IMG/VR virus record: IMGVR_UViG_3300024262_006558
Span: 310,001-374,000 of that record
Direction: 5' to 3' (one strand)
Origin: a virus
Length of the DNA stretch: 64,000 nt
Shown here: in pieces, positions 4,786 through 63,701 of the stretch
Layout of the letters: each line of letters starts with the position of its first letter
Numbering within the stretch: position 1 is the first letter of the stretch
The notes under the pieces: model-generated
What the model was told of the DNA's origin: nothing
The model's database searches: none
The model's input: the letters and a program-made list of their open reading frames with translations, nothing else
Translations under genes and position numbers: made by a program

Positions 4786-6150
4786 TTAATGTTTAAAACC
4801 AGCTGATTCCTTCTCTTGGTTATACTCATCTTCATCAAGAGAGAATATTTCACTAAGCCTAGTGTCTTGAGTTATCAATTCTGAATCAAACCCTATTTTA
4901 TCTGCTAATTTCTTAGCTTTTTCTATATCCAAAGCTTTGAATTCATATTTAGAGATCAATCTTCCTTTTCTAAGTAAAGCTTGATCGATCTTCCCTATAT
5001 CTGCATTGAAAGTGCATAAAACCTGAATACTAAGCGCATCAGATAAGATTCCATCAGAAAGATTAAGAAGGTTGGCCACTGCTGCTTGATTTCCTCCCGC
5101 TGATTCCCCTCTACTTAAAATAGCATTCTCTGCATCTTCTATTACTAATATAGAATTAGAGTGTTGCATAAGAAATGCTATAAACTCTGGTCTACTAATA
5201 GAAGCTGTTAAATCTGGTGGTATATAAATAACTTTCTTGGTCATAACACTTAATAAGTGTTTAATTAAAGTTGTTTTACCTGTACCTGGAGCTCCATGAA
5301 ACATGACAATACCTTTATCTTTAGGAGTGTTTAATCTCTCAATAATTTTTTCATACTCAGGCATAAAATCATCATTGTAATTCAAAGTCAAATCCATTTT
5401 AGGATCTTTAATGTCATAACTAACAAGATCATATCCATTACTTGTTTGGATTACAATATTAATAGTAGATTTCTTTGAATCTTGTGTTTTAATCTTAGCG
5501 CTGCTGAACGTATTCATCAAATCACCTGCAATTACCGCATCATCTTCGCTGTGTATTAAAATGACATCAGCCTTACAAGCAATGTTAATGTTATCGCTTT
5601 TAATTATATCTTCACTATCATCAAAACTACAATCTCGTGAAGGCGCTATTGTCAGTTTTATGTAGAAAAGTTTATTTTTAAAAGTTAATTCAGCAACTAC
5701 CGCATTGGGATATTTGAAATCTTTAATTTCAGCTTCTGGTATTGATTCTATTGATCCATAAATTTTTTTACTTGATGAATCTGTAATAGGCGCATCCTCA
5801 CTTAATCCACAACTAGTATGAGTAATGTTGGTGATTGTAAACCCTTCAAATGTTTTCAAAATCTCTAACAAAGATTCATAATGATAATATTTATGACCAG
5901 AAAATGTAAATGATGGATAAGTGCCAAAATCAATAATCCATTTTTGGACATATGGAAACACAGACCCCTTGGATGTGTCTAAAGATGATATATAAGCTGC
6001 TTTCTTTTCGTCCATTTTTTCTATAAGTTGTGAAAATTTATTTTTTGAGTTTTCTTGAGATATAGACACTTGTCTATCGTAAATAGTTAGTTGATTAGCC
6101 TTATCACTATCGTACATCTCTGCCCTTTCATTTGTTATATGTGAAATCAT
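4786..6150 (-). CDS. AAA+ ATPase, BCS1/classical AAA type
   Basis: The C-terminal half has a full AAA core: Walker A FHGAPGTGKTTL near residue 283, Walker B SILVIEDAENAIL near 335, sensor-1 region VLCTFNADIG, and the arginine-bearing LLRKGRLISKYEF. The N-terminal 260 residues hold no motif I recognise and may be the substrate-recognition part. A role as a remodelling ATPase for a phage or host complex is inferred. A second AAA protein of different design lies at 36226-37323. Confidence 0.8.
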   Translation of the reverse strand: MISHITNERAEMYDSDKANQLTIYDRQVSISQENSKNKFSQLIEKMDEKKAAYISSLDTSKGSVFPYVQKWIIDFGTYPSFTFSGHKYYHYESLLEILKTFEGFTITNITHTSCGLSEDAPITDSSSKKIYGSIESIPEAEIKDFKYPNAVVAELTFKNKLFYIKLTIAPSRDCSFDDSEDIIKSDNINIACKADVILIHSEDDAVIAGDLMNTFSSAKIKTQDSKKSTINIVIQTSNGYDLVSYDIKDPKMDLTLNYNDDFMPEYEKIIERLNTPKDKGIVMFHGAPGTGKTTLIKHLLSVMTKKVIYIPPDLTASISRPEFIAFLMQHSNSILVIEDAENAILSRGESAGGNQAAVANLLNLSDGILSDALSIQVLCTFNADIGKIDQALLRKGRLISKYEFKALDIEKAKKLADKIGFDSELITQDTRLSEIFSLDEDEYNQEKESAGFKH

Positions 6151-27372: not shown

Positions 27373-28092
27373 ATGAGAAAAAGATTTTACATAAAACCTG
27401 ACTTAAAACTTTTCTTAGACCAAGATCCGCTTAGGTTTTCCAGAAGTCAAATAACAGATTTAATTGAAAACCACTTCAATATATATAGCAGTAGATTTGG
27501 TAAAAACATTCCATTCAAACTAAATAATAATCAGAAACAAATTATTAAATCTGTTTCTGAAAACAAGATAACTGTTATTTCTAAAACTAGACAATTAGGC
27601 GTTTCTACAGTTATGCAATCAATTTTAACTTTGTTAATGGCTGATGCAGATGTTACTGTTTATTATATTTGTCATAATAAACAGTCTGCTAAATCTCGTA
27701 AACAATCGATGATATATTTACTTGAATGCTTGAAAGAGTTTGAACTTCAATACAAATCTCCTGACAACCCTTCTTCATTTGATATTATAAAAGAAACTGA
27801 AAATTCTTATACTTTATCAAACTTTAGCAAAATAAAGTTCACAACTTACGATCCTAACCTTTTTAGAGGAAGTAATGCTATGCATGTTTATTTTGATGAA
27901 TGTTTACCTAACAATGTAGCTGATGCTATGATTATGTTAGGGCCAATTACGAATGCGATTAAAGGTCATAGAATTATTATATCAAACCCTACAAGTGAAG
28001 CTGAATACATTTCTCAATCTTTGAGAAACTTAAGGCATCATTTTTTAAATATACCTAGAGGTGAATACCATTTATCTCCAGCCACTTACTAG
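27373..28092 (+). CDS. Terminase-large-subunit-like ATPase domain, no nuclease domain
   Basis: TerL-type ATPase core: FKLNNNQKQIIKSVSENK adenine-binding region, Walker A VISKTRQLGVSTVMQ near residue 75, Walker B MHVYFDEC near 176, and coupling motif IIISNPTSEAE. It ends at residue 239, before the RNase H-like nuclease domain expected in a TerL of 450-600 aa. It may be a split TerL half, a free-standing ATPase, or a remnant. The N-terminus MRKRFYIKP carries the MRKxFY tag seen on nine other proteins here, eight of them in the array at the right end. Confidence 0.72.
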   Translation: MRKRFYIKPDLKLFLDQDPLRFSRSQITDLIENHFNIYSSRFGKNIPFKLNNNQKQIIKSVSENKITVISKTRQLGVSTVMQSILTLLMADADVTVYYICHNKQSAKSRKQSMIYLLECLKEFELQYKSPDNPSSFDIIKETENSYTLSNFSKIKFTTYDPNLFRGSNAMHVYFDECLPNNVADAMIMLGPITNAIKGHRIIISNPTSEAEYISQSLRNLRHHFLNIPRGEYHLSPATY

Positions 28093-30896: not shown

Positions 30897-31793
30897 TTAT
30901 TTTACCCATTGAGCTAAACGACCATCTTGAGTGAAGTATAAATCTTTATCTTCCAATTCTTCTTTGATGATATATTTTTTAAAGTACTCATAAAAAATTT
31001 GTCCAGGTATTCCAACTAGACTATTATATTCATGATGACAATAGTCATTATACCTCTCCTTAAGGTACTCACCTTTTCTCATGCCATCAGCCTTCACCCA
31101 TTTCAAAACAGATAGTTTGAGAGGTACACCAAGTTCATGTGAAGGTAAAGCTCTAGTTGCTATTCCAGATAATTTCATCCAATCCTCATAAGCATTATCC
31201 GTTGACACAATAACTTCATCATTACTGATATAAGCTAAGTCAAATCCTTCTTTCTCTAATGCGTCAGCTAACTGATTCATTTTCATTAGCTGTATCTTAC
31301 CATTTCTATTAGGGTTAAGGTTTCCAAACACTACTTGCCTAAATGATTTAGATTTAACCAGAGTTGGATAAATCATTAAACTAATACAAAGCTCTTCCCA
31401 ACTTTTACCTAACTCATTATCCACATCAAATGTTTTCATGGTAGAGAAATTAGCGCTCTTTATATCAATCGATATAAACATGCTTCCAGACTTAACAAAC
31501 CTTTGATCTAAAGTTCTAAACTCATGACTTGAATAATCATACTCCTGAAAACATGTATAAGCTACAGAATGTTCAATATGGTGTTTTATCTTAGAAAGAC
31601 ATTCTTTTTTATATCTACCAATATGTTCATAACCATGTTCTTTAACCCACTTTTCAAAACCTTTAAACTCTTCTACAAGAGCAGGTAAATGAGAAAACTC
31701 AGGTGACTTAGATAATGTTTCAATATAGTAATCGAACAACGTATCCACTGGAACACTTATTTTAAACATTTTAGCAAATTCTTTATTGTCCAT
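30897..31793 (-). CDS. Uncharacterised protein, possible polymerase-like palm
   Basis: Start placed at the ATG at 31793 (MDNKEFAKMFKIS); a TTG precedes it at 31802. Two acidic motifs stand out, FISIDIKSANFSTMK near residue 105 and AYISNDEVIVSTDN near 190, separated by SKSFRQVVFGNLNPNRNGK. The spacing and the hydrophobic-D-x-K / D-E-hydrophobic pattern recall motifs A and C of a nucleotidyl-transferring palm, but this is only a visual impression. No family is recognised with confidence. It overlaps the MRKRFY-tagged gene upstream by 11 bases. Confidence 0.45.
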   Translation of the reverse strand: MDNKEFAKMFKISVPVDTLFDYYIETLSKSPEFSHLPALVEEFKGFEKWVKEHGYEHIGRYKKECLSKIKHHIEHSVAYTCFQEYDYSSHEFRTLDQRFVKSGSMFISIDIKSANFSTMKTFDVDNELGKSWEELCISLMIYPTLVKSKSFRQVVFGNLNPNRNGKIQLMKMNQLADALEKEGFDLAYISNDEVIVSTDNAYEDWMKLSGIATRALPSHELGVPLKLSVLKWVKADGMRKGEYLKERYNDYCHHEYNSLVGIPGQIFYEYFKKYIIKEELEDKDLYFTQDGRLAQWVK

Positions 31794-32064
31794 AATCTCC
31801 AAATCTATCTTTTAAAACTTTTTTCTCACCATACCGATCTGTAAACACAATCAAGTCTGCTCTATTCATTCTATTCCTAGAGTCTACAGCCACACCGCTT
31901 GTAAAGAACGACATACCTGTAGACCTATGGAAGTTAAAGTCATATAAATTAATATCATTTATATGCTTATATCTAGACCCTTTCACCAAATCATTCTCAG
32001 TTAAATATATTGGTTCCCTATATGGTCTCCACTGTTTGACTGTGTGGTAAAAACGCTTTCTCAT
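31783..32064 (-). CDS. MRKRFY-tagged small protein, 93 aa
   Basis: Starts MRKRFYHTVKQWRPY, the tag also found on the terminase-like ATPase and on the small-protein array at 61.5-63.6 kb. The rest (YLTENDLVKGSRYKHINDI, then a C-terminal VFTDRYGEKKVLKD) is not recognised and looks beta-rich. It lies far from the array, between the RlaP-type gene and the 30897 gene, and overlaps both. The scattered location argues that the tag marks a function and is not just local duplication. Confidence 0.6.
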   Translation of the reverse strand: MRKRFYHTVKQWRPYREPIYLTENDLVKGSRYKHINDINLYDFNFHRSTGMSFFTSGVAVDSRNRMNRADLIVFTDRYGEKKVLKDRFGDYGQ

Positions 32065-33434
32065 ACAGAATAAAACTCTTTACGGATATTAAGAAGTATT
32101 TCTTTACCTTTTTTAGGATCAGAATCTTTAGGCAAATCACTTATAGCATAAGCTTTATCTGATTGCTTCATAAGATCTTCCGCTCCAGACAATATAGTAT
32201 CATAGTCTTGAGCTCCTTTGCGTATCGCTAAGAGCTCTTCTCTATTGTCACGCCTAACGTTAACACCTTTGCCTTCAGCGATCTCTAGAGACATCTGTAG
32301 AAGCCTATAGCAATGCATCATGTTCTTGGTATCATAACCTTTCTTAGCTGAATCTTTATAACGCTCAGGATTTCTTTCTTCAACCCAGTCCCAATATTTT
32401 TTATGAGACTTGCAGTGTTGAGTATAAGCATCCTTTGAATAAACAAAGATTGCTACAGACTCTTCAGACTTAGGAACAGAAGAAGATCTAAGAGAATTAG
32501 AAGTCTCATGCATTATCCCTTTGTATCCAAGGCCCATGAATTCACCAGCGTCCTTAGCAATTTTCTTTCTTTCTTTTCTATCCTCTTCGGGAACCATTTC
32601 AGAAAACATGTTATGCGCAGACCAATCATAAAACAATGCGAAATTATCTTTTGCATTAGGTATACTTACTATACCGCAAAACTTTTGATCATAACCATAA
32701 TGTTCTAATACCTTCTTTAATGGAATAGTCTTATGACCTTCTATTGCATAACAGAAGTCCAATGGAGTTTTTCTAGCTTTTGGCATCTCATTAACAATCA
32801 TTTTGTTTTGCCCTCTAGCTTTTGATATTTGCTTTTTAGCATATCCACCAAATGAATCTTTACATCTTTTTGACAAGAAATCTTTAGCATTAATTTGATC
32901 TAGTAACTCAGATTTAAATAACACACAATCATCTGGCATGTTTAACAACTCCAACACTGTTGGGTTGTTGCTAGTCAACATATCCATATACTTTCTAATT
33001 TCAAAATAAGAGTAATCATCTTTCTTTCTCAAGAAAGTTTGAATTGGCTCTATACCATCATCACTTACAACAGAAACTCCTTCCTTGTTTTCTATAGGAA
33101 GTTTGTCTACAATTACATTTTTATATCCTACATCAGAACATTGCTCTTTTAGAAGGTTATGTAATGCTTCTTGCATTTCATCTCTATTTTCCTGGTTCTC
33201 GCTTTTCTCTTTGAATTCTTCGAAAACGTCTTTTACTTGTTTCTTTACAGTACTTTCAATTACGTCTGGATATTCACCTAACAGTACATCATCTAACTCA
33301 GCTACAAAGATACCTCTTCTATCCTCATCTGATGTTTCTATAGCCGTGTTATAAGCGTGTGATCCAGCTATAACTTCTAACAAAAGAAGTTTATTCTCTT
33401 TGATATACTCTATAGTGTATTTGTCTTTTGACAT
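32061..33434 (-). CDS. RlaP/YcgL-type nucleotidyltransferase
   Basis: N-terminal pol-beta fold signature: VIAGSHAYNTAIETSDEDRR, the G-S-x-A-Y-x-T...S-D-x-D-x-R-G pattern of the RlaP (RNA ligase-associated) nucleotidyltransferase family, PF10127. The long remainder has DPLDFCYAIEGHK-like and helical segments (MMHCYRLLQMSLEIAEG) also typical of that family. RlaP proteins occur next to RNA ligases in predicted RNA-repair operons, and would add or rearrange nucleotides at RNA ends. A LAGLIDADG endonuclease sits immediately upstream on the other strand. Confidence 0.75.
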   Translation of the reverse strand: MSKDKYTIEYIKENKLLLLEVIAGSHAYNTAIETSDEDRRGIFVAELDDVLLGEYPDVIESTVKKQVKDVFEEFKEKSENQENRDEMQEALHNLLKEQCSDVGYKNVIVDKLPIENKEGVSVVSDDGIEPIQTFLRKKDDYSYFEIRKYMDMLTSNNPTVLELLNMPDDCVLFKSELLDQINAKDFLSKRCKDSFGGYAKKQISKARGQNKMIVNEMPKARKTPLDFCYAIEGHKTIPLKKVLEHYGYDQKFCGIVSIPNAKDNFALFYDWSAHNMFSEMVPEEDRKERKKIAKDAGEFMGLGYKGIMHETSNSLRSSSVPKSEESVAIFVYSKDAYTQHCKSHKKYWDWVEERNPERYKDSAKKGYDTKNMMHCYRLLQMSLEIAEGKGVNVRRDNREELLAIRKGAQDYDTILSGAEDLMKQSDKAYAISDLPKDSDPKKGKEILLNIRKEFYSV

Positions 33435-45090: not shown

Positions 45091-45993
45091 TTAATTTAAT
45101 AAATTTTTCTCAAAAGGACCAATAAATTTTTTGTCATCTGAGTAGTCAAGAACAGCAAACCTAGCTTCTTTAAAAAAGCCTTTGAACTCATTCTCTAATT
45201 TGTCCTTGAAAATTTTAGAAATAACATCAGGGTCATTGCCGAAAACTCCGCATCCCCATGCTCCTAAAATTAATTTATCATAACCTTTATCAGCCGCAAA
45301 AGTTAATACAATTTCAATTCTTTCATCCATTGTTGAGTTTATTAACCCAACATTATCTGGCTCATTTACTGTAACCGCTCCAGCGTTAACTGCGGGAGAA
45401 GTAAGAACCGATATTTGATATGGTTCATCTAAAAGATTTCCATTATCATCCTTAAAAAAGGTAACTCCTGGAGAATGTATCAAGCCATGACTATACAAAG
45501 ATGAACCAAAATAAGCATTGTTATCATAAAAGTTATTAGAATTTTTAGTGATCAATGTGTGATACAAATCAGAAGATCTAGCTAAACATTCTTCTTGAGC
45601 TTGAGCTCCATTTAGAAAACCTCCGCCTGGATGTTTTGCTGAAGCAAAATTAAGCATTAAAGTCTTGCCATCGGTTTCAAGTAATTCTTGAGCGGCTTCC
45701 ATAGTAGTTTGATTCACTACGGTAATATTCAAAGTATGGTCAGGGTTTTCTTCAGAGTGAGAAAAACATTCATAAACTTCCTTCACCAACTTTCTATCAC
45801 TATTAAGTTCAATGGTAATGCCATGATCATAATAAGTGGCCAAAGTCAACGCTTGTTTAGTGTTGCCAGACAAACTAACAACTTTGCCCTTTGAATTAGT
45901 ATAAGATCCCTCTTGAACCTTTTTCATGGTGTCATTAGCAATCTCAATTCTATTATGAGATGGGTATTTTGAATTTGTCGTTTTTTGGTTCAT
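45091..45993 (-). CDS. Microbial PARG-type macrodomain hydrolase
   Basis: TIGR02452-type microbial poly(ADP-ribose) glycohydrolase/macrodomain: the signature SAKHPGGGFLNGAQAQEECL matches the PARG GGG...QEE catalytic loop, with the catalytic Glu pair at QEE. Upstream VNQTTMEAAQELLETDGK and downstream LTSPAVNAGAVT and GAWGCGVFGNDP complete the macrodomain. It would remove ADP-ribose from proteins or nucleic acids. In a phage this could undo toxin-type ADP-ribosylation used in host defence. A strong phage-type promoter precedes it. Confidence 0.85.
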   Translation of the reverse strand: MNQKTTNSKYPSHNRIEIANDTMKKVQEGSYTNSKGKVVSLSGNTKQALTLATYYDHGITIELNSDRKLVKEVYECFSHSEENPDHTLNITVVNQTTMEAAQELLETDGKTLMLNFASAKHPGGGFLNGAQAQEECLARSSDLYHTLITKNSNNFYDNNAYFGSSLYSHGLIHSPGVTFFKDDNGNLLDEPYQISVLTSPAVNAGAVTVNEPDNVGLINSTMDERIEIVLTFAADKGYDKLILGAWGCGVFGNDPDVISKIFKDKLENEFKGFFKEARFAVLDYSDDKKFIGPFEKNLLN

Positions 45994-45999
45994 ATACTG

Positions 46000-46028
46000 A
46001 TATAACGAAAATAATAGGCAAATGTTGC
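46000..46028 (-). promoter_or_regulatory. Phage promoter family member before the macrodomain gene
   Basis: Leftward GCAACATTTG, then TCGTTATAT with 22 positions from G to C. It ends seven bases before the ATG at 45993 and its upstream box is part of a hairpin. Confidence 0.65.
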
Positions 46029-46033
46029 CTATT
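46013..46033 (-). terminator. Hairpin at the end of the thg1 gene, overlapping a promoter
   Basis: AATAGGCAA / TTGCCTATT inverted repeat with a three-base loop, followed leftward by ATTTTCG. It covers the Thg1 stop and the GCAACA box of the next promoter, so it may be a terminator, an operator, or both. Confidence 0.55.
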
Positions 46034-46814
46034 CTTCTAATTGAAATAATTTATTTTCATACACAGGAACTATGCTTGATAAGAATGTCCAATCCTTAGA
46101 GAATATTGGAGGCTCCAACGCTTCCCATCTAGACCTTTTAACTCCAGGCTCTTTTTCATATTCTTTTCTAGCGATCACGGTCCCTCTTTTAAAACGAACC
46201 TCATAATCATTCCAATTAATCCCTTTCTCAAGCATTAACTTATCTTGAATCTGACCCCCATTCTTGCCTTGCAACTCCTTGTGAGAGAACTGAGCTTGAC
46301 CCGCCATTGAAACTGAGTTTCTTGTACAGTCTTGCTGTCTCCAAAGAAAGTAGTTTAATACATCATTTGGATTTGGTATTAGAAAAGCTCTAGAATCAAA
46401 GTTAGCCCAAATAAAAGAGTCTAACTTGAAACCTTCCTCGGAAATAGCTCTCTTAAGTCTAAGGTTGTTAAAGATAGTTGTTGCTAATGAAGCAGCTATA
46501 GAATTGATCTTATCCACTCTACCATCATATAATTGTTGACTCTTAATGTTCTCAAAATCAGTGAACAATAAAGATATCTCATCAGATTGAGTATATGCCA
46601 TTCTACAACATTGCAGTTCAGAACATAACTGTCTAGCCGTCTCAATCATATCGTCAGATAAACCAGAATCAAATGGCTTTTCAACCTTTTTAGTGTACTT
46701 TGAAAATTTTTTCCCGTCTAATCTAACTAAAACATAGCTGCGAGGAGACAGTTTAATAGTGGAGGCTGATTCGTATTGTTTTATACGTTCACCTAATGTT
46801 ATTTCTTTACTCAT
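46029..46814 (-). CDS. thg1: tRNA(His) guanylyltransferase / Thg1-like 3'-5' polymerase
   Basis: Thg1 family: RLDGKKFSKYTKKVEKPFD (first metal-site motif), then AYTQSDEISLLFTDF (second), and SMAGQAQFSHKELQGKNG-type downstream core. Length 261 aa is standard. Thg1-like proteins add nucleotides in the 3'-5' direction; in bacteria they repair tRNA 5' ends. It fits the RNA-repair group in this window (RNA ligases, Pnkp, RlaP, Tpt1). It overlaps the radical SAM gene by eight bases. Confidence 0.9.
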   Translation of the reverse strand: MSKEITLGERIKQYESASTIKLSPRSYVLVRLDGKKFSKYTKKVEKPFDSGLSDDMIETARQLCSELQCCRMAYTQSDEISLLFTDFENIKSQQLYDGRVDKINSIAASLATTIFNNLRLKRAISEEGFKLDSFIWANFDSRAFLIPNPNDVLNYFLWRQQDCTRNSVSMAGQAQFSHKELQGKNGGQIQDKLMLEKGINWNDYEVRFKRGTVIARKEYEKEPGVKRSRWEALEPPIFSKDWTFLSSIVPVYENKLFQLEE

Positions 46815-47700
46815 TACGTTCTAATTTTACTTTCGAAAATATTTCCTTAATTCCTTTTCCACCAATCCTATGTCTTTTTTCAGCCGTAGATGAAACTCCA
46901 TATTCTTGTTCCACTCCACAGATATACATAGAAAACTCACCTTCATCTCCCATAAAGAATTGTTCCCAAGACTCCTTAGAAAGGAACCTCTTAAGATTCA
47001 ATTGATCTATAGCTAGATTATCAAATGAGAAAATAATCTTTTTAAAATACAAAGGCATTTTTGTATACCATTGATAGATGTTACTCTTAACATCTTCACT
47101 GTAGTAACGTTTACCTTTGCCAAATTGTTTGTAACCAAGTACAAGTATTTTTGCATTCATTTCCAAAACCTCATCTAAACATTCAATAGGGTTGATTCCC
47201 GCAATCACGTGAAGAACAGTGTTTGGAGTTAATTCTACAAATTTCTTAACCAAAGCTACATGCTTACCTGCATAAGTAAGCCCTAGGCCCCAAATAAGTT
47301 TCTCATTAACGAACCTTTCGATTGTATCCTCATATTTCTTGAGGTGCAATTCATTCATGGTCATATTAGCAATAATGCCGCGCTCTTTAAGCGTCTGTAA
47401 GAAACGTTCTATCTCTGGATGAGCCAATGGATTACCTCCACCAATAGCTAGCTCTACACCTGCTGGCAATTCCTCTAAACAAGAAAGAAGCTCATCTATA
47501 TCAGCATGTTTTCCTTTAAGATTAGATTGCTCATGACACCATAAACAGTGAGATCCTAAATCACAAAAATTAGTGATTTTAACATCTATGCTACAAGGGA
47601 AATCTGGTTTAGCCTCTCCAACGTATTCTCTAATGCTGGTCCCATCTTCCATAACAGTAACTCCTACGTTACCATTAATATATTGATGAAGCCTAGACAT
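46807..47700 (-). CDS. Radical SAM-like protein with CX5CX2C cluster
   Basis: TIM-barrel radical SAM pattern with an iron-sulphur cysteine cluster in ITNFCDLGSHCLWCHEQSN, spaced C-x5-C-x2-C instead of the usual C-x3-C-x2-C, followed by ELAIGGGNPLAHPEIERFLQ, a typical GGxP SAM-binding/second strand, and later VLGYKQFGKG. An N-terminal segment (YINGNVGVTVMEDGT) may be a small domain. The substrate is unknown; neighbours are Thg1 and a conserved phage protein, so a nucleoside or RNA target is conceivable. Confidence 0.72.
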   Translation of the reverse strand: MSRLHQYINGNVGVTVMEDGTSIREYVGEAKPDFPCSIDVKITNFCDLGSHCLWCHEQSNLKGKHADIDELLSCLEELPAGVELAIGGGNPLAHPEIERFLQTLKERGIIANMTMNELHLKKYEDTIERFVNEKLIWGLGLTYAGKHVALVKKFVELTPNTVLHVIAGINPIECLDEVLEMNAKILVLGYKQFGKGKRYYSEDVKSNIYQWYTKMPLYFKKIIFSFDNLAIDQLNLKRFLSKESWEQFFMGDEGEFSMYICGVEQEYGVSSTAEKRHRIGGKGIKEIFSKVKLERNE

Positions 47701-48499
47701 CTTCTATCGTGTAGTTAAATGTTTTATCCACACCATCTTTTCCCCACCCAGACTTAGCTGTAACAGTAAGGTTTTCAGTGTTTACCATAAAACTCCACAG
47801 ATCATCATCATCAATTAAAGCCTCAACTGATCTAAGTAATTCTTCCGAGCTTTCTTTATCTGTCAAGTTACCTACATTGCCAAACCCTTCAACTCTCATT
47901 TTATATTTAGCTTCATTGTCATTGCAATAGAAATTAAGAGGAGCTGAAGAGTTATCGTTACCAGTATGTAATGCAGATTTAGGATTGAATATGAACTGTC
48001 TTATCTTTTCTTTATCAAGAAGAATTTCACCATCAGAAGCATCTTCAAATGACTGGTGATCTATGTAAGAATAATGTCCATCATTCCAATTAGTAGTTCC
48101 TAACACAACCACTTCTAATGCTCCAGTTTGCTCTTTAATAGCCTCTTCGAAATTCTTACGACATTCTAAATAATCAGATGCTGCAAATTTATATAATCCG
48201 TACTGAGAAATTTCATCCCCAGGCTTACCTTGTATATATTTAAGCATATCTTCAAGCGTTAACAACATAGTTGCTAAATAGCTAGCTTTAGTTTGCGCAT
48301 CATTAAATTTTTCCCATTGCCATCCGAATTCATCACCCTTAATTATAATTGCATTCTGAACTACTTCTTCTAATTCATCTATGTACCCACTTTCAATAGG
48401 TAATGTTTCATACACATCAACACTATCATCAATATGTAAACTATGACTACTGGAGCTGTTTGTTTCAAATACAGCTTTTCTAATTTTCTTGTTCTTCAT
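47693..48499 (-). CDS. Conserved phage protein with NSSSSHS motif, about 268 aa
   Basis: Starts MKNKKIRKAVFETNSSSSHS, a head sequence I recognise from many phage and bacterial proteins of unknown function (IRKxVFETNSSSSHS). ATG at 48499 is chosen over a TTG at 48529 and an ATG at 48511. The rest mixes helical segments (ATMLLTLEDMLKYIQGK) with beta-rich C-terminal sequence (NLTVTAKSGWGKDGVDK). It overlaps both neighbours. Confidence 0.65.
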   Translation of the reverse strand: MKNKKIRKAVFETNSSSSHSLHIDDSVDVYETLPIESGYIDELEEVVQNAIIIKGDEFGWQWEKFNDAQTKASYLATMLLTLEDMLKYIQGKPGDEISQYGLYKFAASDYLECRKNFEEAIKEQTGALEVVVLGTTNWNDGHYSYIDHQSFEDASDGEILLDKEKIRQFIFNPKSALHTGNDNSSAPLNFYCNDNEAKYKMRVEGFGNVGNLTDKESSEELLRSVEALIDDDDLWSFMVNTENLTVTAKSGWGKDGVDKTFNYTIEDV

Positions 48500-48842: not shown

Positions 48843-49762
48843 TATAGTTTTATATTTTCAAGTTTAACAAACTCAACTCCCATATCTCTAGCTTCCTGAA
48901 ATATGTCATCAGCAATATTTTCAAACCCAGGAACTGAACTCATACAATCTTCTACAATTACCACCCTATCTAATAGCCTTTTGAAATCATCGTCTTCTTT
49001 TGAAAAGTCAATTATTTGTTTAATTGAAGTGGCTACACAATGCGACTTTGCTTCACCGCATAAATATATTTTATCCATTCCATTATCATAGCCAAACTGA
49101 GCCGTTCCAACAAGATAATTTACTAGATTCTGAACCATCATAGAATGCCTTGTTGTTTCTGATACTTGTGGCACAGGAACTTCAGCTTCAAAAATTCCAT
49201 AATGCTCAGAAAACGCGAACTGACCTTTATATAGTATTTTGTGATTATTAGCTGTAGCTATACTCCAGTCTTTAATGACTTTCATTAACGGATCATATAT
49301 AGCGTGCCCCCAACTACCCGACACGCAGTGTATAGGCCAAATTGTATGCTCTTTACCTGCTTCCTCAAGATCGCTCAAATACTCCACAGAACCTCTTTGA
49401 TATGTCATGTGAGTATCGAAGTCGTAACTTGGATCTTTCAAGTCTACTTTTTTAATGCCTCCAAACTCATCTTGAGTAATAGCTGCAGTATATTTTCTAC
49501 CTTTAGCCTCTTTGTGTTTGATTGTGGTAAATGGCTCAACTGGATTACCCTCTGGATCCATCCAGAAAGTGGGGTGCGATATATCAATCACATCATGCGT
49601 ATCTAATGATACAGCTATCCCGCTAATCTTATCTTGATTAGCTGCTATGAACTTGGATAATCTATCCATGTCATCATCCGCCCCTGGAACATATAAAGAT
49701 CCTTTTGGGTCAACGAAGTCATTTTGTGGATCTATACAAAGTATTGAAATTCTCTTTTTCAT
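48842..49762 (-). CDS. pncA: Nicotinamidase/isochorismatase-family hydrolase
   Basis: Nicotinamidase-type catalytic triad: Asp in LCIDPQNDFVDPKGSLYVPG, Lys in YKGQFAFSEHYGIFE, and Cys in CGEAKSHCVATS. The metal-site DxH is in SLDTHDVIDISHPTFW and the WPIHCVSGSWGHAI element is typical of PncA. It would turn nicotinamide into nicotinate for the Preiss-Handler route to NAD+. At about 306 aa it is longer than PncA (about 210 aa), with inserts in the first half. A second close paralogue lies at 54409-55239. Confidence 0.85.
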   Translation of the reverse strand: MKKRISILCIDPQNDFVDPKGSLYVPGADDDMDRLSKFIAANQDKISGIAVSLDTHDVIDISHPTFWMDPEGNPVEPFTTIKHKEAKGRKYTAAITQDEFGGIKKVDLKDPSYDFDTHMTYQRGSVEYLSDLEEAGKEHTIWPIHCVSGSWGHAIYDPLMKVIKDWSIATANNHKILYKGQFAFSEHYGIFEAEVPVPQVSETTRHSMMVQNLVNYLVGTAQFGYDNGMDKIYLCGEAKSHCVATSIKQIIDFSKEDDDFKRLLDRVVIVEDCMSSVPGFENIADDIFQEARDMGVEFVKLENIKL

Positions 49763-49772
49763 ATAATTTTAC

Positions 49773-50270
49773 TTATTTTATTAATTCTTCTTTTTTGATT
49801 CCTAGAAACTCTTGATAGATGTTTTCTGTCCTATCTTGGCATATTCCCTCCCACACTAGATAGAAACTACGACCTTCGGAATAAATCATTGAAACCGTTG
49901 GTTTACCTATTTTTGTGATATGTGTAAATTTATGGTGCCTACTATTATATGTCAATATAAGAGAATCTTTTATATTAATCAAGCTTTCAGTGTTTTCGTC
50001 TTTCACCCAATCATCTGGATATAACTCAAACCTATCTCTCATCTGACTTATTCCTGGTCGTAAATAATCTAGCGTATTATGTTTAAAAGTTAGAATAGAA
50101 ACTGTAACTACTATTACAACTGTTAAAGCTGTATACAGTTTTCTTTTATCCTCATATAACTGTTCTCTTTTAGTGTATAGGAACTCCCAAGTTCCCCATA
50201 ATGTAAATGCACCTATGGCTAATCCACCAAAAATACAATATAACATGAAACTATCAAAACTAATAATCAT
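49773..50270 (-). CDS. Two-helix membrane protein, paralogue of next gene
   Basis: Two N-terminal hydrophobic helices (MLYCIFGGLAIGAFTLWG; YTALTVVIVVTVSILTF) and a soluble tail containing RPGISQMRDRFELYPDDW and an ending ITKIGKPTVSMIYSEGRSF...EELIK. The next gene upstream ends in the same EELIK and has RPAVESVYIEFRENPENW, so the pair seems to derive from a duplication. Function unknown. Confidence 0.55.
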   Translation of the reverse strand: MIISFDSFMLYCIFGGLAIGAFTLWGTWEFLYTKREQLYEDKRKLYTALTVVIVVTVSILTFKHNTLDYLRPGISQMRDRFELYPDDWVKDENTESLINIKDSLILTYNSRHHKFTHITKIGKPTVSMIYSEGRSFYLVWEGICQDRTENIYQEFLGIKKEELIK

Positions 50271-50277
50271 AATACTT

Positions 50278-50766
50278 TTATTTTATTAACTCTTCTACTT
50301 TAGAGTTTTCTTCAAACTCTTTATATCTATTTTTATCGGCATCTTCACTCCTCTTGTATATTGCTAATTTAAGAAAAGAATCTTCTATTTCAGTAAGTTT
50401 AAATGAATTTTTGCCATATGGAGCCATCCAATCTCTATCTTTATTAAACCTTAAACCATCACTCTTTCTAATCCAAACATCTCCAGATAGACTCCAATTT
50501 TCTGGATTCTCTCTAAATTCTATATAAACCGATTCCACTGCTGGTCTCATTTTTATGTGATATGTTTCTATCCATAAATAAAATAATGATACTATAACAA
50601 AAGAAATCACTGGAGCCATTATAAAAATGTTTTCACTTACCCAATCACATGCTTCATTATTATAAGAAGTTTTACCATTATCGAAAATTCCATGTCTAAT
50701 TATAGCCGCTAATACAACAAACAAAACCACGCAAAAGCATATACAAAATTCTTGCAAACCTATCAT
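50278..50766 (-). CDS. Two-helix membrane protein, paralogue of preceding gene
   Basis: Same layout as its downstream neighbour: two hydrophobic helices (FCICFCVVLFVVLAAII; IFIMAPVISFVIVSLFYLW), then a tail with RPAVESVYIEFRENPENW and the C-terminus VEELIK. They lie between a nicotinamidase and the kinase gene of the TerY-P-like cluster, so a membrane sensor for that system is possible but unproven. Confidence 0.55.
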   Translation of the reverse strand: MIGLQEFCICFCVVLFVVLAAIIRHGIFDNGKTSYNNEACDWVSENIFIMAPVISFVIVSLFYLWIETYHIKMRPAVESVYIEFRENPENWSLSGDVWIRKSDGLRFNKDRDWMAPYGKNSFKLTEIEDSFLKLAIYKRSEDADKNRYKEFEENSKVEELIK

Positions 50767-50767
50767 A

Positions 50768-52462
50768 CTATTTTTTATTTAAAAGATAAACATCATCTTC
50801 CCACGCTATGATTCCAGCGTTAGTTACATACAAAGATGTGGAATCTGAAGTAAAACTGCAAGAGATTGAAGCTATTTCTTGAAAATCTGATGTTCTAATA
50901 ACTTTAATACCTCCATCATTCGGTTCAAATATCATACCCGCAGCCTTTCCTCCGAACTCATACATTCTCTTAACTTCATTTGGAGAAAATACAACCTTCA
51001 TCCCATCTATTTTGAAATACTTGTATTTCAACTCTGGGCCTTCTATATATTGAGCTATTCCTAAATTAGCTTTTTGGAAAACTAATTTTACATTATCCTG
51101 AAACGCTACATTATTCATAGCTTTGCCTGAATTATATAACAACCTCTTTTTGCCTCCAAGATTTTGCATATACGCTCCACGATTGATAAATCCTTTTGAG
51201 AAAACATCTTGAACTTCTACTCTCAATCTATCATTAGATGGCTGAAAAATCTCATCAAGATACACGTTGGTCATTTTATCATCCCCAATCATAACCAACA
51301 TATTTTCATATTGATTAAATGAAGGTTCATCATCAAAAGTGAAGTTTTTTATCTTAGTTCTTTCTTTTTCCGATTTGATATAATATAAACTATTCCCTCT
51401 CTTTCCATAAATAAATTTATCTGTAAGGAAGATGAATTCATATTCATCTCTAGAAAGAGCAAATTTCTGTCTTACATGCCCTTTGTTGGAGCTGTCATAA
51501 ATGATGTAATTTTCATCGGTAGCTATATAGCCTTGATTCTCCATAAAAAAGACATTGTTCACCTCTAGTGAACTAGTAATGCAGCTCACGTTTACATCTT
51601 TGTCAGAGAACTGTGCAGGCTTTATTTTTTTAACTTTCTTAGTAGCAGCTACTGGAGTTCCAGCTAATGACATGAGAAATCTGTCACCTTCACAGTATAA
51701 CAAATCATATTGATTGGTTAAAGATACATCCGTTATAGGCTCATACGCTTTGGGTATTTTTATATCGGGATCTTTTTTAAATACGGGGAGCTTCAACTTC
51801 ATACGATCCTCAATTTTCTTATGCACTTTATGCACTCCTTTAAATGGGTGTATGTGCGTAAGCATGTTGAATATGAGGACAGACAACGCGAAGAAGTCGC
51901 TAGTTTCAGCAACTGTTCCTCCATGTAAATAATCTCTTATGTCTTGCAGTAAAATTCCAGAGTGAGGATGGTTTGGAGTCTGATAAGAATCCACATCAAT
52001 CAGTCTTAAATCACCTTTGTTATTGATCATAACATTGAACTGGTTTAGATCTCCTATAACCACTTCATTCTTATGAGCGTATTCAACGGATTTAATTAAT
52101 GCTTCACCAATCTTTCTCTTTATCTTGTCAGTGATATTGTTTCTTCCGCAAAAGTTCTTGGCAAATATACTAGACAAAGGAAAGAATCCTTGCCCTAAAT
52201 ACTCCATGGTAAACCCAACGATCTGGTCGTTCTGATTCATTAACAGCTCTCTAGGGGACACGAATAGAGTCTGATCTAAACCACTAAGGTAATCAAACTG
52301 ATCTTCCGTTATAGGGGTTATATTGTCATGATATATTTTCGCAACAATACTTGAATCGCTCTTGATAGATATGATTCTACCTTCCCCTCCTCTATGTATC
52401 TCATCTACCTCGTCAATCGCATATCGATTCCCTAAAGGTGTCTTTAACTGAAGTAATGCCAT
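50768..52462 (-). CDS. Protein kinase of TerY-P type with C-terminal propeller-like region
   Basis: Ser/Thr kinase-like core: glycine loop RGGEGRI (residues 24-30), Lys42 in VAKIYHD, catalytic loop IGDLNQFNVMIN (136-147) where HRD is changed to GDLN, and metal motif LIDVDSY (154-160) where DFG is changed to DVD. These alterations are like those of the kinase in TerY-P systems. The last 260 residues are beta-rich repeats (for example YIATDENYIIYDSS, KFIYGKRGNSLYYIKS), perhaps a propeller. PP2C and vWA genes follow upstream. Confidence 0.78.
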   Translation of the reverse strand: MALLQLKTPLGNRYAIDEVDEIHRGGEGRIISIKSDSSIVAKIYHDNITPITEDQFDYLSGLDQTLFVSPRELLMNQNDQIVGFTMEYLGQGFFPLSSIFAKNFCGRNNITDKIKRKIGEALIKSVEYAHKNEVVIGDLNQFNVMINNKGDLRLIDVDSYQTPNHPHSGILLQDIRDYLHGGTVAETSDFFALSVLIFNMLTHIHPFKGVHKVHKKIEDRMKLKLPVFKKDPDIKIPKAYEPITDVSLTNQYDLLYCEGDRFLMSLAGTPVAATKKVKKIKPAQFSDKDVNVSCITSSLEVNNVFFMENQGYIATDENYIIYDSSNKGHVRQKFALSRDEYEFIFLTDKFIYGKRGNSLYYIKSEKERTKIKNFTFDDEPSFNQYENMLVMIGDDKMTNVYLDEIFQPSNDRLRVEVQDVFSKGFINRGAYMQNLGGKKRLLYNSGKAMNNVAFQDNVKLVFQKANLGIAQYIEGPELKYKYFKIDGMKVVFSPNEVKRMYEFGGKAAGMIFEPNDGGIKVIRTSDFQEIASISCSFTSDSTSLYVTNAGIIAWEDDVYLLNKK

Positions 52463-52466
52463 ACTA

Positions 52467-53243
52467 TTAAAATTCTAAGTGTAATTGATCATCAGATATT
52501 ACAATTCTGTAAATACCCAAATCATCTCTATGATTCCATCCTTTATTTCTAAGGATGTTTACTTTTCTCTCCAACATTGTTGGGTTACCTAAAAACCTTA
52601 TGTCTTCTGAAAGATAAGCGGCTGGATCCTCTATATCTGGAGAAACGCCATGGTTAGGAACATATGAAGTAATCCCATCTGTAGCAATAGTCACGTCTCT
52701 AATTTGAGGCACAGTGAAGTCTATTACATTCTTTGCAAATCTAGGAGTTTCTACTATTCCATCATACCAATTCTCAAAAGAAGACAGGTCATTAATATCT
52801 CCCAAATGATATGCAATATAATTGGGAGCATTACTTTGCTCTATTTCATGGCGTTGACCATTAATTGAAACAAAACCATCTCCAATAACAGCGATGTAAC
52901 CACTATTATCTCTCACATCTCTTACTAGAAGTATGATAGTCGCTAGAAGATCGTTAGTGTTTAATCCTAAATCTTCTTTAACTCTTTTGAGTCTACAAGA
53001 AAATGAGTAAAGCAATTGTTTCGAAAGTTCTTTTGGAGTTTCATCTCCAAGAACCATATGCTCTTTACAAGTGTTTTCAAATAATCTAGCAAATAAAGTA
53101 GAGGCAAAATGTGAATCTCTACCGCTTGAACAACCATCAAATACAGCGGATACAAAATACTGCCCCTCATAATCATGAAAGAAATTGAAATCTTCGCACC
53201 AATTTTTGTGATCGGCGCCTTGTTTTAACAAACTATATATCAT
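52467..53243 (-). CDS. PP2C-family protein phosphatase
   Basis: PP2C metal-binding motifs in order: KNWCEDFNFF, AVFDGCSSGRDS, GYIAVIGDGFVS, TIATDGITSYV and NHRDDLGIYRIV. It is 258 aa, a single catalytic domain. It removes phosphate from Ser/Thr. With the kinase directly downstream and the TerY-type vWA protein upstream it forms the three-gene set known as the TerY-P triad, a stress/phosphorylation module. Confidence 0.82.
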   Translation of the reverse strand: MIYSLLKQGADHKNWCEDFNFFHDYEGQYFVSAVFDGCSSGRDSHFASTLFARLFENTCKEHMVLGDETPKELSKQLLYSFSCRLKRVKEDLGLNTNDLLATIILLVRDVRDNSGYIAVIGDGFVSINGQRHEIEQSNAPNYIAYHLGDINDLSSFENWYDGIVETPRFAKNVIDFTVPQIRDVTIATDGITSYVPNHGVSPDIEDPAAYLSEDIRFLGNPTMLERKVNILRNKGWNHRDDLGIYRIVISDDQLHLEF

Positions 53244-61572: not shown

Positions 61573-61791
61573 TTATCTATCACTTCCTAATAAGCCACGT
61601 TGTAAAGTTCTCCATCCACCTTCTTCATAAATCTGAAGCGTTTGAAATGTTGAATTGAATAACATGATACCAGGTGTCGGTTGTGAAATGTTTTCCCTTT
61701 CTCTTTGTGTATAAATTTGAAAATTTATAGCTTTAACCTCCCTTACTTTAAAAGGCATATAAAACCTTTTACGAATTGTCTTGTGCGCCAT
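61573..61791 (-). CDS. IRKRFY-tagged small virion-like protein, 72 aa
   Basis: Starts MAHKTIRKRFYMPFK: the tag is preceded by five extra residues. The C-terminal half, GIMLFNSTFQTLQIYEEGGW, resembles the GxxxYNxxxxxLxxYxxxxW segment common in phage tail-fibre and capsid-decoration proteins. It overlaps the next array gene by 23 bases. It is the last gene of a leftward array of tagged proteins. Confidence 0.6.
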   Translation of the reverse strand: MAHKTIRKRFYMPFKVREVKAINFQIYTQRERENISQPTPGIMLFNSTFQTLQIYEEGGWRTLQRGLLGSDR

Positions 61792-61987
61792 TGTTATCTA
61801 TTATGTTTCCATAATAAATAGGATTCACTTCTGCAAGGGCGTATCTAGATCTCAAATTTACCTTTGAGCTAAATGAAGGATCACATATAACCTTCGTAGT
61901 ATTAACCATTATATATGGCATAAACACAAGCCCAGGCATACTTAGATCCACACACTTATTATACGCAAAGTAAAATCTCTTTCTCAT
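61769..61987 (-). CDS. MRKRFY-tagged small protein, 72 aa
   Basis: Begins MRKRFYFAYNKCVDLSMP. The remainder is beta-rich (LVFMPYIMVNTTKVICDP, LRSRYALAEVNPIYYGN). No other family seen. Its ATG overlaps the TAA of a 23-codon open stretch continuing the upstream gene, in the TAATG arrangement. Confidence 0.6.
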   Translation of the reverse strand: MRKRFYFAYNKCVDLSMPGLVFMPYIMVNTTKVICDPSFSSKVNLRSRYALAEVNPIYYGNIIDNNGAQDNS

Positions 61988-62058
61988 TACACTAAATTTG
62001 CTTGAGCCTCTAGTTCAGCCCAATAGTCTATGCCAAATGTTTCAGCATTATACCTGAT
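61987..62058 (-). other. In-frame 23-codon extension beyond a TAA of the upstream gene
   Basis: Directly after the stop of the 149-aa array gene (TAA at 62059-62061) the same frame stays open for 23 codons of coding-like sequence (RYNAETFGIDYWAELEAQA) and ends in a TAA that overlaps the next ATG. This suggests the stop at 62059 is a recent nonsense change or an assembly error, or that the two parts were one protein of about 173 residues. Confidence 0.5.
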
Positions 62059-62508
62059 TTAACTCGTGGTTTGCTCAACTCTACGAACTTCATCACCAAC
62101 CCTTACATTAGTAAAGAAAGTCATTGGTTCAGCAAATACATGATAAAACTTTTTAATAGTCCTCCCGTCTGCATGTGCCTTATGATCCAAGTCTCTTCTA
62201 ATTTTCCAAATATACCAAGGCTCATCTTCTGAACATGTATTTGAGGCTGAATAAACGAAGTCTAAATAATTCAAAATTCCTATAGGCCCATTCATAGGCC
62301 GTACTTCAACAAGTTCTTGAGCTAGCAGTGTAGAAACAGGTCTTCTAGCTACAATAGATCCCTCATCTCTTGACGAGCGTCCTTCTTGCAATTTTCTCAT
62401 ACTATACCATTCACTAATGGAACACTCTTTTTCTATAGGAACATACCAGTCTTCATCAATGAATAAATCTGGATAAACATTATATCCTACATAGAAATTC
62501 TTTCTCAC
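62059..62508 (-). CDS. MRKNFY-tagged protein, 149 aa, GTG start
   Basis: Reads from a GTG at 62508 as MRKNFYVGYNVYPDLFID, so it has the tag with Arg changed to Asn at position 4. The middle contains WYSMRKLQEGRSSRDEG and a Trp-rich EPWYIWKIRRDLDHKAH, then a beta-type end (PMTFFTNVRVGDEVRRV). Its stop may be premature, as the frame continues in coding style for 23 codons. It is the largest member of the array. Confidence 0.6.
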   Translation of the reverse strand: MRKNFYVGYNVYPDLFIDEDWYVPIEKECSISEWYSMRKLQEGRSSRDEGSIVARRPVSTLLAQELVEVRPMNGPIGILNYLDFVYSASNTCSEDEPWYIWKIRRDLDHKAHADGRTIKKFYHVFAEPMTFFTNVRVGDEVRRVEQTTS

Positions 62509-62555
62509 TATTATGCTTTTATTAAAACATAATGATAAATAATATAAAAATCAAA

Positions 62556-62777
62556 TTAAGACTTTGGTTTACAGAAGTGTTCTTCTCTAAAATTCATGTA
62601 TGTAGACATCATTACAGCATCACACATGTCAGTAAGATCATGGTTCTCTTTCAAGGCGTCTAACAGTCCTGTTTCAGACCATTTAGTTACTAAATGTTCA
62701 CGTTGAATTTGTAAAGTTCTACTACCCCACAATTCTTTTGGAGCTGGATTGTATGCATGATAAAAGTACTTCCTCAT
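62556..62777 (-). CDS. MRKYFY-tagged small protein, 73 aa
   Basis: Begins MRKYFYHAYNPAPKELWG. The rest is helical (LVTKWSETGLLDALKENHDL, TDMCDAVMMSTYMNF). Tag residues 1-10 closely match the next gene (MRKQFYHAYN). It has a 47-base gap downstream that carries nothing recognisable. Confidence 0.6.
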   Translation of the reverse strand: MRKYFYHAYNPAPKELWGSRTLQIQREHLVTKWSETGLLDALKENHDLTDMCDAVMMSTYMNFREEHFCKPKS

Positions 62778-62779
62778 TA

Positions 62780-63025
62780 TTATAAATTCAAATCTTCTAT
62801 ATTAATACCAAAACTGCTCAAATTAATTGTAGCTTTCATACGTTCTCTTGTTTGCTCATTGTTTGGTTCTCCAACAAACTGTTCCAAGGCTACCCTCATT
62901 TGTTCTTGAGCATCAACTCCAAACACATTAAAATTGCTATCTGGAAGATTTAGTTCAATGGGAAAACGTACAGACACACTTGGAAACTTGTATTTGTTAT
63001 ACGCATGGTAAAATTGCTTTCTCAT
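62780..63025 (-). CDS. MRKQFY-tagged small protein, 81 aa
   Basis: Begins MRKQFYHAYNKYKFPSVS. The C-terminal half is helical (FGVDAQEQMRVALEQFVGE, TRERMKATINLSSFG). It overlaps the upstream array gene as ATGA and is separated from the downstream array gene by two bases. Confidence 0.6.
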   Translation of the reverse strand: MRKQFYHAYNKYKFPSVSVRFPIELNLPDSNFNVFGVDAQEQMRVALEQFVGEPNNEQTRERMKATINLSSFGINIEDLNL

Positions 63026-63267
63026 ACTCTAGTCATCTTAAAAGGCATAATTTTAGACAGTTGCCTAAAAGAATCTGGAGCCCCTCTAAGAACTTTAAAT
63101 GTTGTGAAATCATTCTCACTTACAAGAGTGTCAGATATATCAACATTATATTTGTTACATATCTGCTCTATGCTAATCCCGCTGATCATAATTAAGTCCT
63201 GAACACTTTCAAGACTTATCTTCATTTTTATTTTATAAGGATGACCTATATAGAATCTCTTTCTCAT
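63022..63267 (-). CDS. MRKRFY-tagged small protein, 81 aa
   Basis: I start it at ATG 63267 (MRKRFYIGHPYKIKMKISLE); the upstream ATG at 63285 would add six residues inside the previous gene and hide the tag. The start overlaps the previous stop as ATGA. The rest contains SVQDLIMISGISIEQICNKY and a basic C-terminus, looking like a small HTH-type helix set. Function unknown. Confidence 0.6.
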   Translation of the reverse strand: MRKRFYIGHPYKIKMKISLESVQDLIMISGISIEQICNKYNVDISDTLVSENDFTTFKVLRGAPDSFRQLSKIMPFKMTRV

Positions 63268-63476
63268 GCTACAACTTGGACCCATCGTCCATTTAAATAA
63301 ATTTTAACAGAACCTTCATCCCTATCATAAATAGACTGACCATCAAATGGGCTTGCCACCTCTTCAGGTAAATAACCAGGTAAAGTATCTTCTATAATAA
63401 CTTGATGGTGTCTTTCTAACTCTTCTAAAGTTATAACTGCTTTAAGATTTCCGTTTAAATAGAAGCGTTTTCTCAT
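63264..63476 (-). CDS. MRKRFY-tagged virion-like small protein, 70 aa
   Basis: Begins MRKRFYLNGNLKAVITLE. The C-terminal part FDGQSIYDRDEGSVKIYLNG, then RWVQV, resembles the GxIxYxxDExxxxxYxNGxW segment common in phage tail and capsid-decoration proteins, as also seen in the gene at 61573. It overlaps the upstream 57-aa ORF by 35 bases and the downstream gene by four. Confidence 0.62.
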   Translation of the reverse strand: MRKRFYLNGNLKAVITLEELERHHQVIIEDTLPGYLPEEVASPFDGQSIYDRDEGSVKIYLNGRWVQVVA

Positions 63477-63615
63477 ATGCGTGTTCTCTCATTTCTTTTG
63501 CTAATAAATCACGTTTCTCTACACTTATTTCAATTCCATATTGAGACAACTGATCCCAAGGAACTCCCAATACTGTAAGCGCTGGCATATATGCAAAATA
63601 AAACTTCTTTCTCAT
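63442..63615 (-). CDS. MRKKFY-tagged small protein, 57 aa, too short for routine calling
   Basis: From ATG 63615: MRKKFYFAYMPALTVLGVPW, then DQLSQYGIEISVEKRDLLAK and a short basic end, stop at 63442. The tag is intact apart from Lys at position 4. It is the first array gene after the tRNA-Leu gene, whose 3' end lies three bases upstream of this ATG. Confidence 0.65.
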   Translation of the reverse strand: MRKKFYFAYMPALTVLGVPWDQLSQYGIEISVEKRDLLAKEMREHAYEKTLLFKRKS

Positions 63616-63617
63616 TG

Positions 63618-63701
63618 TACTCGAAGAGGGAGTCGAACCCTCATGCCCATAAGGGCGCTAGATCCTAAGTCTAGTGCGTCTACCAATTCCGCCATCCGAG
63701 C
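63618..63701 (-). tRNA. tRNA-Leu (anticodon UAG)
   Basis: Class II tRNA of 84 nt on the minus strand. The acceptor stem GCTCGGA pairs with TTCGAGT (with two G-U pairs), the anticodon stem CTAGA/TCTAG holds the loop CTTAGGA with anticodon TAG (reads CUA Leu), the variable arm is long (CGCCCTTATGGGC), and the T stem GAGGG/CCCTC holds TTCGACT. The CCA end is not encoded. It is adjacent to the MRKxFY array. Confidence 0.93.

Follow-up and report, generated by a model that had tools for sequence, protein, structure and literature searches.

An N-terminal RKxFY tag on small proteins of a huge T4-like phage, some of which are related to its own virion proteins

Background

Why would a phage begin many small, otherwise dissimilar proteins with the same few residues? 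The question is raised by a 64,000-nucleotide stretch (the window), bases 310001-374000 of the 388,594-base virus record IMGVR_UViG_3300024262_006558, in which a sequence-only reading had recognised ten open reading frames (ORFs) with an N-terminal RKxFY tag. All ten exist, eight of them in an array at 61573-63615 on the minus strand and the other two at 27373-28092 (plus strand) and 31783-32064 (minus strand), but they are only about a quarter of the genome-wide set. Coordinates are those of the window unless marked as record coordinates. We find the tag on at least 46 ORFs, about ten of which have bodies related to the phage's own virion proteins, in six cases to a single one, the major capsid protein (MCP). 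The explanation that we favour, with a probability of roughly 0.35, is that the tag would be a docking handle on many small proteins, some of which would mimic virion parts.

The phage is T4-like: it encodes a Gp23 capsid protein (E 1e-74), a Peptidase_S77 prohead protease, a gp18-type sheath, a gp19-type tube and a T4-type terminase. An overlapping contig, 99.95-100% identical over the first ~53 kb of the record, extends ~96 kb further upstream, so the genome must be at least ~485 kb. Judged by the capsid protein, the closest isolated relatives are the Flavobacterium phages 'immuto' (32% identity), which makes a Bacteroidota host likely. Gene calling was run on 20-kb pieces with a simple codon model, and the small tagged genes were therefore read from the motif itself.

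Results

Constraint on the tag

RKxFY stands at the N-terminus of 43 ORFs in the 388-kb record and of 3 more on the overlapping contig; when the called proteins are shuffled, 0.03 tagged ORFs are expected, against more than 40 found. To count the motif, all start codons of open frames of 40 codons or more were scored for R2, K3, F5 and Y6. All four residues directly follow the start in 35 ORFs of this phage and three of the four in 6. For the sister phage G029, which has a genome of 372 kb and an MCP about 70% identical, the corresponding counts are 0 and 7. Near-misses are thus at background level and the motif is bimodal. The tags were picked by pattern, so that their invariance by itself would be circular as proof of constraint. 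The codons for the four fixed residues occur in 18 combinations among 42 tags, with third positions near even (TTC/TTT 25/17, TAC/TAT 23/18, AAA/AAG 26/16). The lack of a surplus of near-misses, together with this silent variation, indicates that constraint acts on the protein. Constraint at the protein level is well supported, and the earlier claim that the tag is no recent DNA repeat is borne out. Chance or a recent repeat as the source of the tag is already refuted by the counts: RKxFY is short, and single N-terminal matches, several of them signal-peptide-like, do occur in unrelated contigs, but chance does not account for the excess over expectation, for the complete absence of tagged ORFs from G029, or for the codon combinations.

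The motif is followed by one of two styles, HAYN-like or IxP-like, the usual continuation being [I/H/F][A/S/G][P/Y], and as many as nine additional residues can precede it. It is predicted to be unstructured in two structure models (pLDDT 35 in the model of the tagged tube described below). Its position at the start codon, and the frequent overlap of tagged genes with the stop of the preceding gene, could suggest an expression element, whose first codons would aid translation start or message stability with the amino acids as a by-product. Such an element seems very unlikely to us, since the constraint is on amino acids and not on bases, codon 4 is free, the motif need not adjoin the start, and the other genes of the phage manage without a tag.

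Tagged bodies related to the capsid protein

The tagged proteins had been described as otherwise unrelated. This is correct for the bodies compared with one another, among which no sequence relationship was detected, but not for the approximately ten that are relatives of the phage's own virion proteins; complete untagged capsid, tube, sheath and terminase genes are kept alongside them. The bodies were compared with profiles made for 446 untagged phage genes, to which relatives were added where found. Five separate stretches of the MCP are matched by tagged bodies with values of 2.5e-6 to 0.003, while reversed bodies, used as a control, gave no match better than 0.003. The weakest fragment (record 5484-5669) does not rise above this control, and its assignment comes instead from searching the complete set of 8685 six-frame ORFs with the MCP profile. 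In that search the five ORFs ranking directly below the MCP gene are all tagged, an outcome with a probability of 3e-12 under random choice.

Three of these five belong to the minus-strand array of the window. The first in rank after the MCP itself is 62059-62508 (149 amino acids, GTG start, RKNFYVGYN), matching MCP 77-114; the second is 61769-61987 (72 amino acids, MRKRFYFAYN), a C-terminal piece matching MCP 495-544; and the fourth is 62556-62777 (73 amino acids, MRKYFYHAYN), an N-terminal piece matching MCP about 16-40, with 6e-4 in the profile comparison and a blastp E-value of 1.6e-5 to the MCP of LR756508. The remaining two are record 170115-170267 (MCP 404-432) and record 5484-5669 (MCP 349-380). 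A further array gene, 63264-63476 (70 amino acids, MRKRFYLNG), has a fibre-like end and a weak likeness to the spine-helix region of the MCP, corresponding to about 314-370 in relatives (blastp E 7e-5 in a small database). We thus count six apparent capsid pieces, five firm and this sixth one weak. Pfam Gp23 is the sole family match for two of them, in both cases just below cut-off (61769-61987, 4e-5; 62059-62508, 0.008). With 50-149 amino acids against the 552 of the MCP, the fragments contain no full-length capsid fold, and since two of them cover the same region the set is not simply one capsid gene cut up.

The piece at 62059-62508 lies roughly at the conserved MCP stretch that we take to correspond to T4 Gol, a correspondence made without alignment to T4 and to be treated as a lead, not a test. 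Gol is a short region of the T4 capsid protein that is sensed by Lit. The likeness lies in the use of a short capsid stretch as a signal, although Gol itself is part of an intact capsid protein and carries no tag.

Tagged relatives of tube, sheath and terminase

The best non-self matches of the tail tube, sheath and TerL profiles among all ORFs are also tagged ORFs. The tagged tail tube (record 168541-168993) scores 8e-13 in the profile comparison, 2e-10 with the phage's own tube profile and 5e-8 with the PHROG tail tube. It aligns with the tube over its whole length at 31-36% identity, two loops being absent, and its moderately confident structure model resembles tube/Hcp structures at TM-scores below 0.6. 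A second tube-like tagged protein (record 94018-94494) is weakly supported. The N-terminus of the sheath is matched by a tagged body with 3.5e-4 in the profile comparison and, weakly, with E 0.14 in the all-ORF search.

The tagged plus-strand gene at 27373-28092 (239 amino acids, MRKRFYIKP) is TerL-like, with values of 2e-10 for the PHROG terminase, 2e-9 in the profile comparison and 5e-7 for the phage's own TerL profile among all ORFs; Pfam places it in Terminase_6N (5e-7, above cut-off). Walker A, Walker B and the following motif are retained in the alignment, and the protein ends after the ATPase domain, with no nuclease domain. No relatives of the tagged TerL or of the tagged tube were found in IMG/VR. 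The tube, sheath, TerL and N-terminal MCP bodies all start near the natural N-terminus, so here the tag replaces or extends it.

Two sources for the virion-derived bodies were considered and rejected. Their codon use resembles that of the rest of the genome, which speaks against a foreign origin, and a recent donor phage was not found among LR756508, RM378, immuto and LAK, whose capsids are at best 30-50% identical to the fragments over short stretches.

The fragments could also be mere debris. Recombination might keep fusing a tag-bearing gene start to coding scraps; the tag would then be selected or spread as a module, the bodies would be functionless, and the virion fragments would be relics bound for new genes or loss. 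That several bodies are short internal capsid pieces, and that the coding scores of tagged ORFs are low, agrees with this. We nevertheless consider it doubtful, because all virion-derived pieces remain open and retain conserved residues, the TerL copy having kept its catalytic motifs and the tube copy its length, and because the diverse tag codons imply that the tag did not spread recently.

Other tagged genes and loci

Among the remaining array genes of the window, bodies without relatives are found in the first gene, 63442-63615 (57 amino acids, MRKKFYFAY), and in 63022-63267 (81 amino acids, MRKRFYIGH) and 62780-63025 (81 amino acids, MRKQFYHAYN); 61573-61791 (72 amino acids) has a fibre-like end by eye and no family match. 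All four are on the minus strand. The last one begins MAHKTIRKRFY, which, with the GTG start of 62059-62508, corrects the statement that the eight array genes begin (M)RKxFY and leaves it otherwise intact. Outside the array, the minus-strand gene at 31783-32064 (93 amino acids, MRKRFYHTV) likewise has a body without relatives, and it overlaps the end of a nucleotidyltransferase gene (32061-33434). The C-terminus of the latter reads IRKEFYSV, so that at 32061-32090 a tag-like sequence lies beside a real tag.

Across the record the tag is joined to unrelated bodies at several separate loci: the window array and, in record coordinates, ~20 genes at 222859-229682, groups of four (168541-170515) and two (4791-5669), and singletons. 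The searches made found no relatives for the bodies of the ~20-gene array. By eye these bodies have a strand-strand-helix-strand look. A common body family for them was considered and rejected, as leave-one-out profiles never rank the omitted member above background and the one single-sequence model is of low confidence. Codon use is shifted in this array alone (TTC 0.49, ATA 0.59). At record 119158-119382 the tag again takes the place of a natural N-terminus or lengthens it: the body is a small protein known also from Cellulophaga phages, where the N-terminus differs. A pair of small untagged paralogs (record 52230-52469 and 170558-170773, E 3e-10) has one member directly after the tagged group at 168541-170515.

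Promoters and the case for head loading

The window array lies at the end of a tRNA cluster, directly downstream of a tRNA-Leu (TAG) gene (63617-63701, minus strand), and its first ATG is one base after that gene (63615-63617). Processing of the tRNA-Leu 3' end would leave an almost leaderless array message. Two promoter types can be discerned in the record. One, AAAGTACATAATATCCCC..CACCGTATATATTGGTGA, is a strong repeat situated ~30 bases ahead of the ATG in many small genes, almost wholly within record 230-274 kb, and is probably an early promoter class. The other, CTATTTATA, precedes the start codons of many virion genes by ~24 bases in record 0.5-200 kb and is probably a late promoter. The latter stands directly upstream of one tagged gene alone (record 116977); the other tagged genes may be in operons. 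Timing the tagged genes by their promoters was considered and rejected, as most have neither type directly upstream.

The sequence-only reading had proposed a docking, packaging or targeting signal on virion or packaging proteins. An N-terminal signal conserved at the protein level is indeed present, and many tagged bodies are fragments or diverged copies of MCP, tube, sheath or terminase, but such homology does not make the tagged proteins virion components. Moreover, a T4-type protease site is not conserved after the tag and most tagged genes lack a late promoter directly upstream.

These observations bear on the main rival explanation, a head-loading signal like the capsid targeting sequence of the T-even phages, by which small proteins would be loaded into the prohead and injected with the DNA. 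The bodies would then be assorted anti-defence proteins, with virion fragments as one cargo source among others. The T-even internal proteins IPI, IPII and IPIII are likewise small and highly diverse defence proteins, with nothing in common but a short conserved N-terminal targeting sequence (PMC3012670). Small, variable, tagged genes in arrays look like this design, and the phage has both a T4-type capsid and a prohead protease. However, the tag is basic and aromatic, with a sequence unlike that of the T-even phages, and there are many more members. The motif [LIVMF]xE is found within the first 40 residues of 21 of the 46 proteins, at scattered positions, although this is the T4 rule and may not be that of the protease encoded here. 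The single directly upstream late promoter may also count against head loading, which furthermore does not explain why so many bodies are relatives of capsid, tube, sheath or terminase, a feature in which the set differs from the internal proteins. Head loading is possible, if somewhat less probable than a docking handle with mimic bodies, and the two are compatible if the mimics are injected.

Distribution

The motif search of the genome and its relatives that had been suggested along with the first ten proteins separates this phage clearly from the others. An unbiased count of N-terminal motifs revealed no substitute tag in G029. The contigs of 42 relatives (~3 Mb, MCPs 56-76% identical) contain no tagged gene, their one pattern match being an 18-codon ORF. 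Among the matches listed, pattern scans of IMG/VR returned contigs of this phage and unrelated single matches, and no other contig with more than one tagged ORF; one scan gave a single locus, where inspection showed no tagged ORF. RKxFY matches in GTDB genomes are internal or unrelated, and no tags were found in LAK-B5, RM378, immuto, LR756508, a cyanophage or phi13:1. As far as the collections searched reach, the tag appears to be restricted to this lineage. A literature search found no described N-terminal tag of such a kind, nor truncated capsid proteins used for interference.

Other features of the genome

DNA polymerase III alpha is encoded on the minus strand in two genes (record 45705-48092 and 49564-51765; L011:5705-8092 and L011:9564-11765). 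The break coincides with a probable split intein: the end of gene 1 matches an N-terminal intein region (TIGR01445, weak), and gene 2 starts with an intein-C-like stretch, after which the polymerase resumes. Two more genes, one of them nuclease-like by eye, lie between the halves. On the overlapping contig, L047:2265-4364 holds tRNAs with CTA anticodons, called Pyl and likely amber suppressors, and two tRNAs with four-base anticodons; a large tRNA set adjoins. Six paralogous genes in tandem at record 271442-273488 (L022) are built of WYLNGKxHREDGPA repeat units.

Discussion

How might one short sequence serve so many bodies? A motif kept on unrelated bodies calls for a common reader, which we would identify with a single docking partner. 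RKxFY would then be a short linear docking motif at the N-terminus of the 46 or more small tagged proteins, and the handle common to them would bind one shared, probably phage-encoded, partner. Behind the handle, one group of bodies consists of shortened, diverged relatives of virion parts: the six capsid pieces, the full-length tube and its weaker second copy, the sheath N-terminus and the TerL ATPase domain. Each such mimic would bind the targets of the real protein, whether these take part in the assembly of a competing phage or satellite or serve the host in sensing capsid, tube or terminase. By way of the handle, the resulting complex would then reach the common partner. Decoys for sensors and poison subunits for rivals are indistinguishable from the sequence.

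Mimicry is the simplest use of virion-derived bodies, given that capsid, tube and terminase trigger defence and that assembly blocking is known between phages. Bacterial defence is reported to be set off by the capsid and the tail tube (PMC9712102, PMC11087589), and also by terminase and portal (PMC10286901). The phage inhibitor DSAD1 and the tail tube compete for the DSR2 sensor (PMC10286901, PMC11087589). The likeness is that of a phage protein occupying a virion-protein sensor; a shared tag and, in some of the bodies, virion-protein ancestry mark the tagged set, neither being known for DSAD1, and a DSR2-type partner is not known for this phage. As to rivals, capsid and packaging interference proteins of satellites stop head or tail assembly of another element. 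Prophage Tab similarly blocks virion assembly of another phage (PMC10884400). In both cases, as might be the case here, one phage element halts the head or tail assembly of another.

A more specific and rather unlikely variant is a protein-made interference array, in which the constant handle would recruit one effector and specificity would come from the virion-derived bodies, each joining the assembly of its counterpart, be it capsid, tube, sheath or terminase, in a rival phage or satellite. Constant handle and variable body would resemble the repeat and spacer logic of CRISPR, here in polypeptides. We know of no assembly blocker built as an array of target-protein fragments behind a common tag, of no description of a phage that retains pieces of its own virion proteins with a tag attached, and of no described kind of system that combines a shared tag with virion-protein fragments.

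Several points weigh against a docking handle with mimic bodies. The partner of the tag, for which there is no candidate, and the role of the bodies as mimics are both inferred. The majority of bodies, among them all those of the array at record 222859-229682, are without relatives, so mimicry cannot be generalised, and several of the short capsid pieces may not fold. As the best conserved of phage proteins, those of the virion are the easiest to recognise, which may bias the estimated share of virion-derived bodies in either direction. Finally, the known phages compared include no clear donor or target.

The tag provides a signature that groups orphan genes which ordinary homology searches miss. 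If it is a docking signal, there would be a common function for about 46 orphan phage genes, and its partner would reveal a new targeting route, by which heads might be loaded, sensors blocked or rivals interfered with. As mimics, if they are such, the bodies would draw attention to systems, of the host or of rivals, by which capsid, tail tube and terminase are read.
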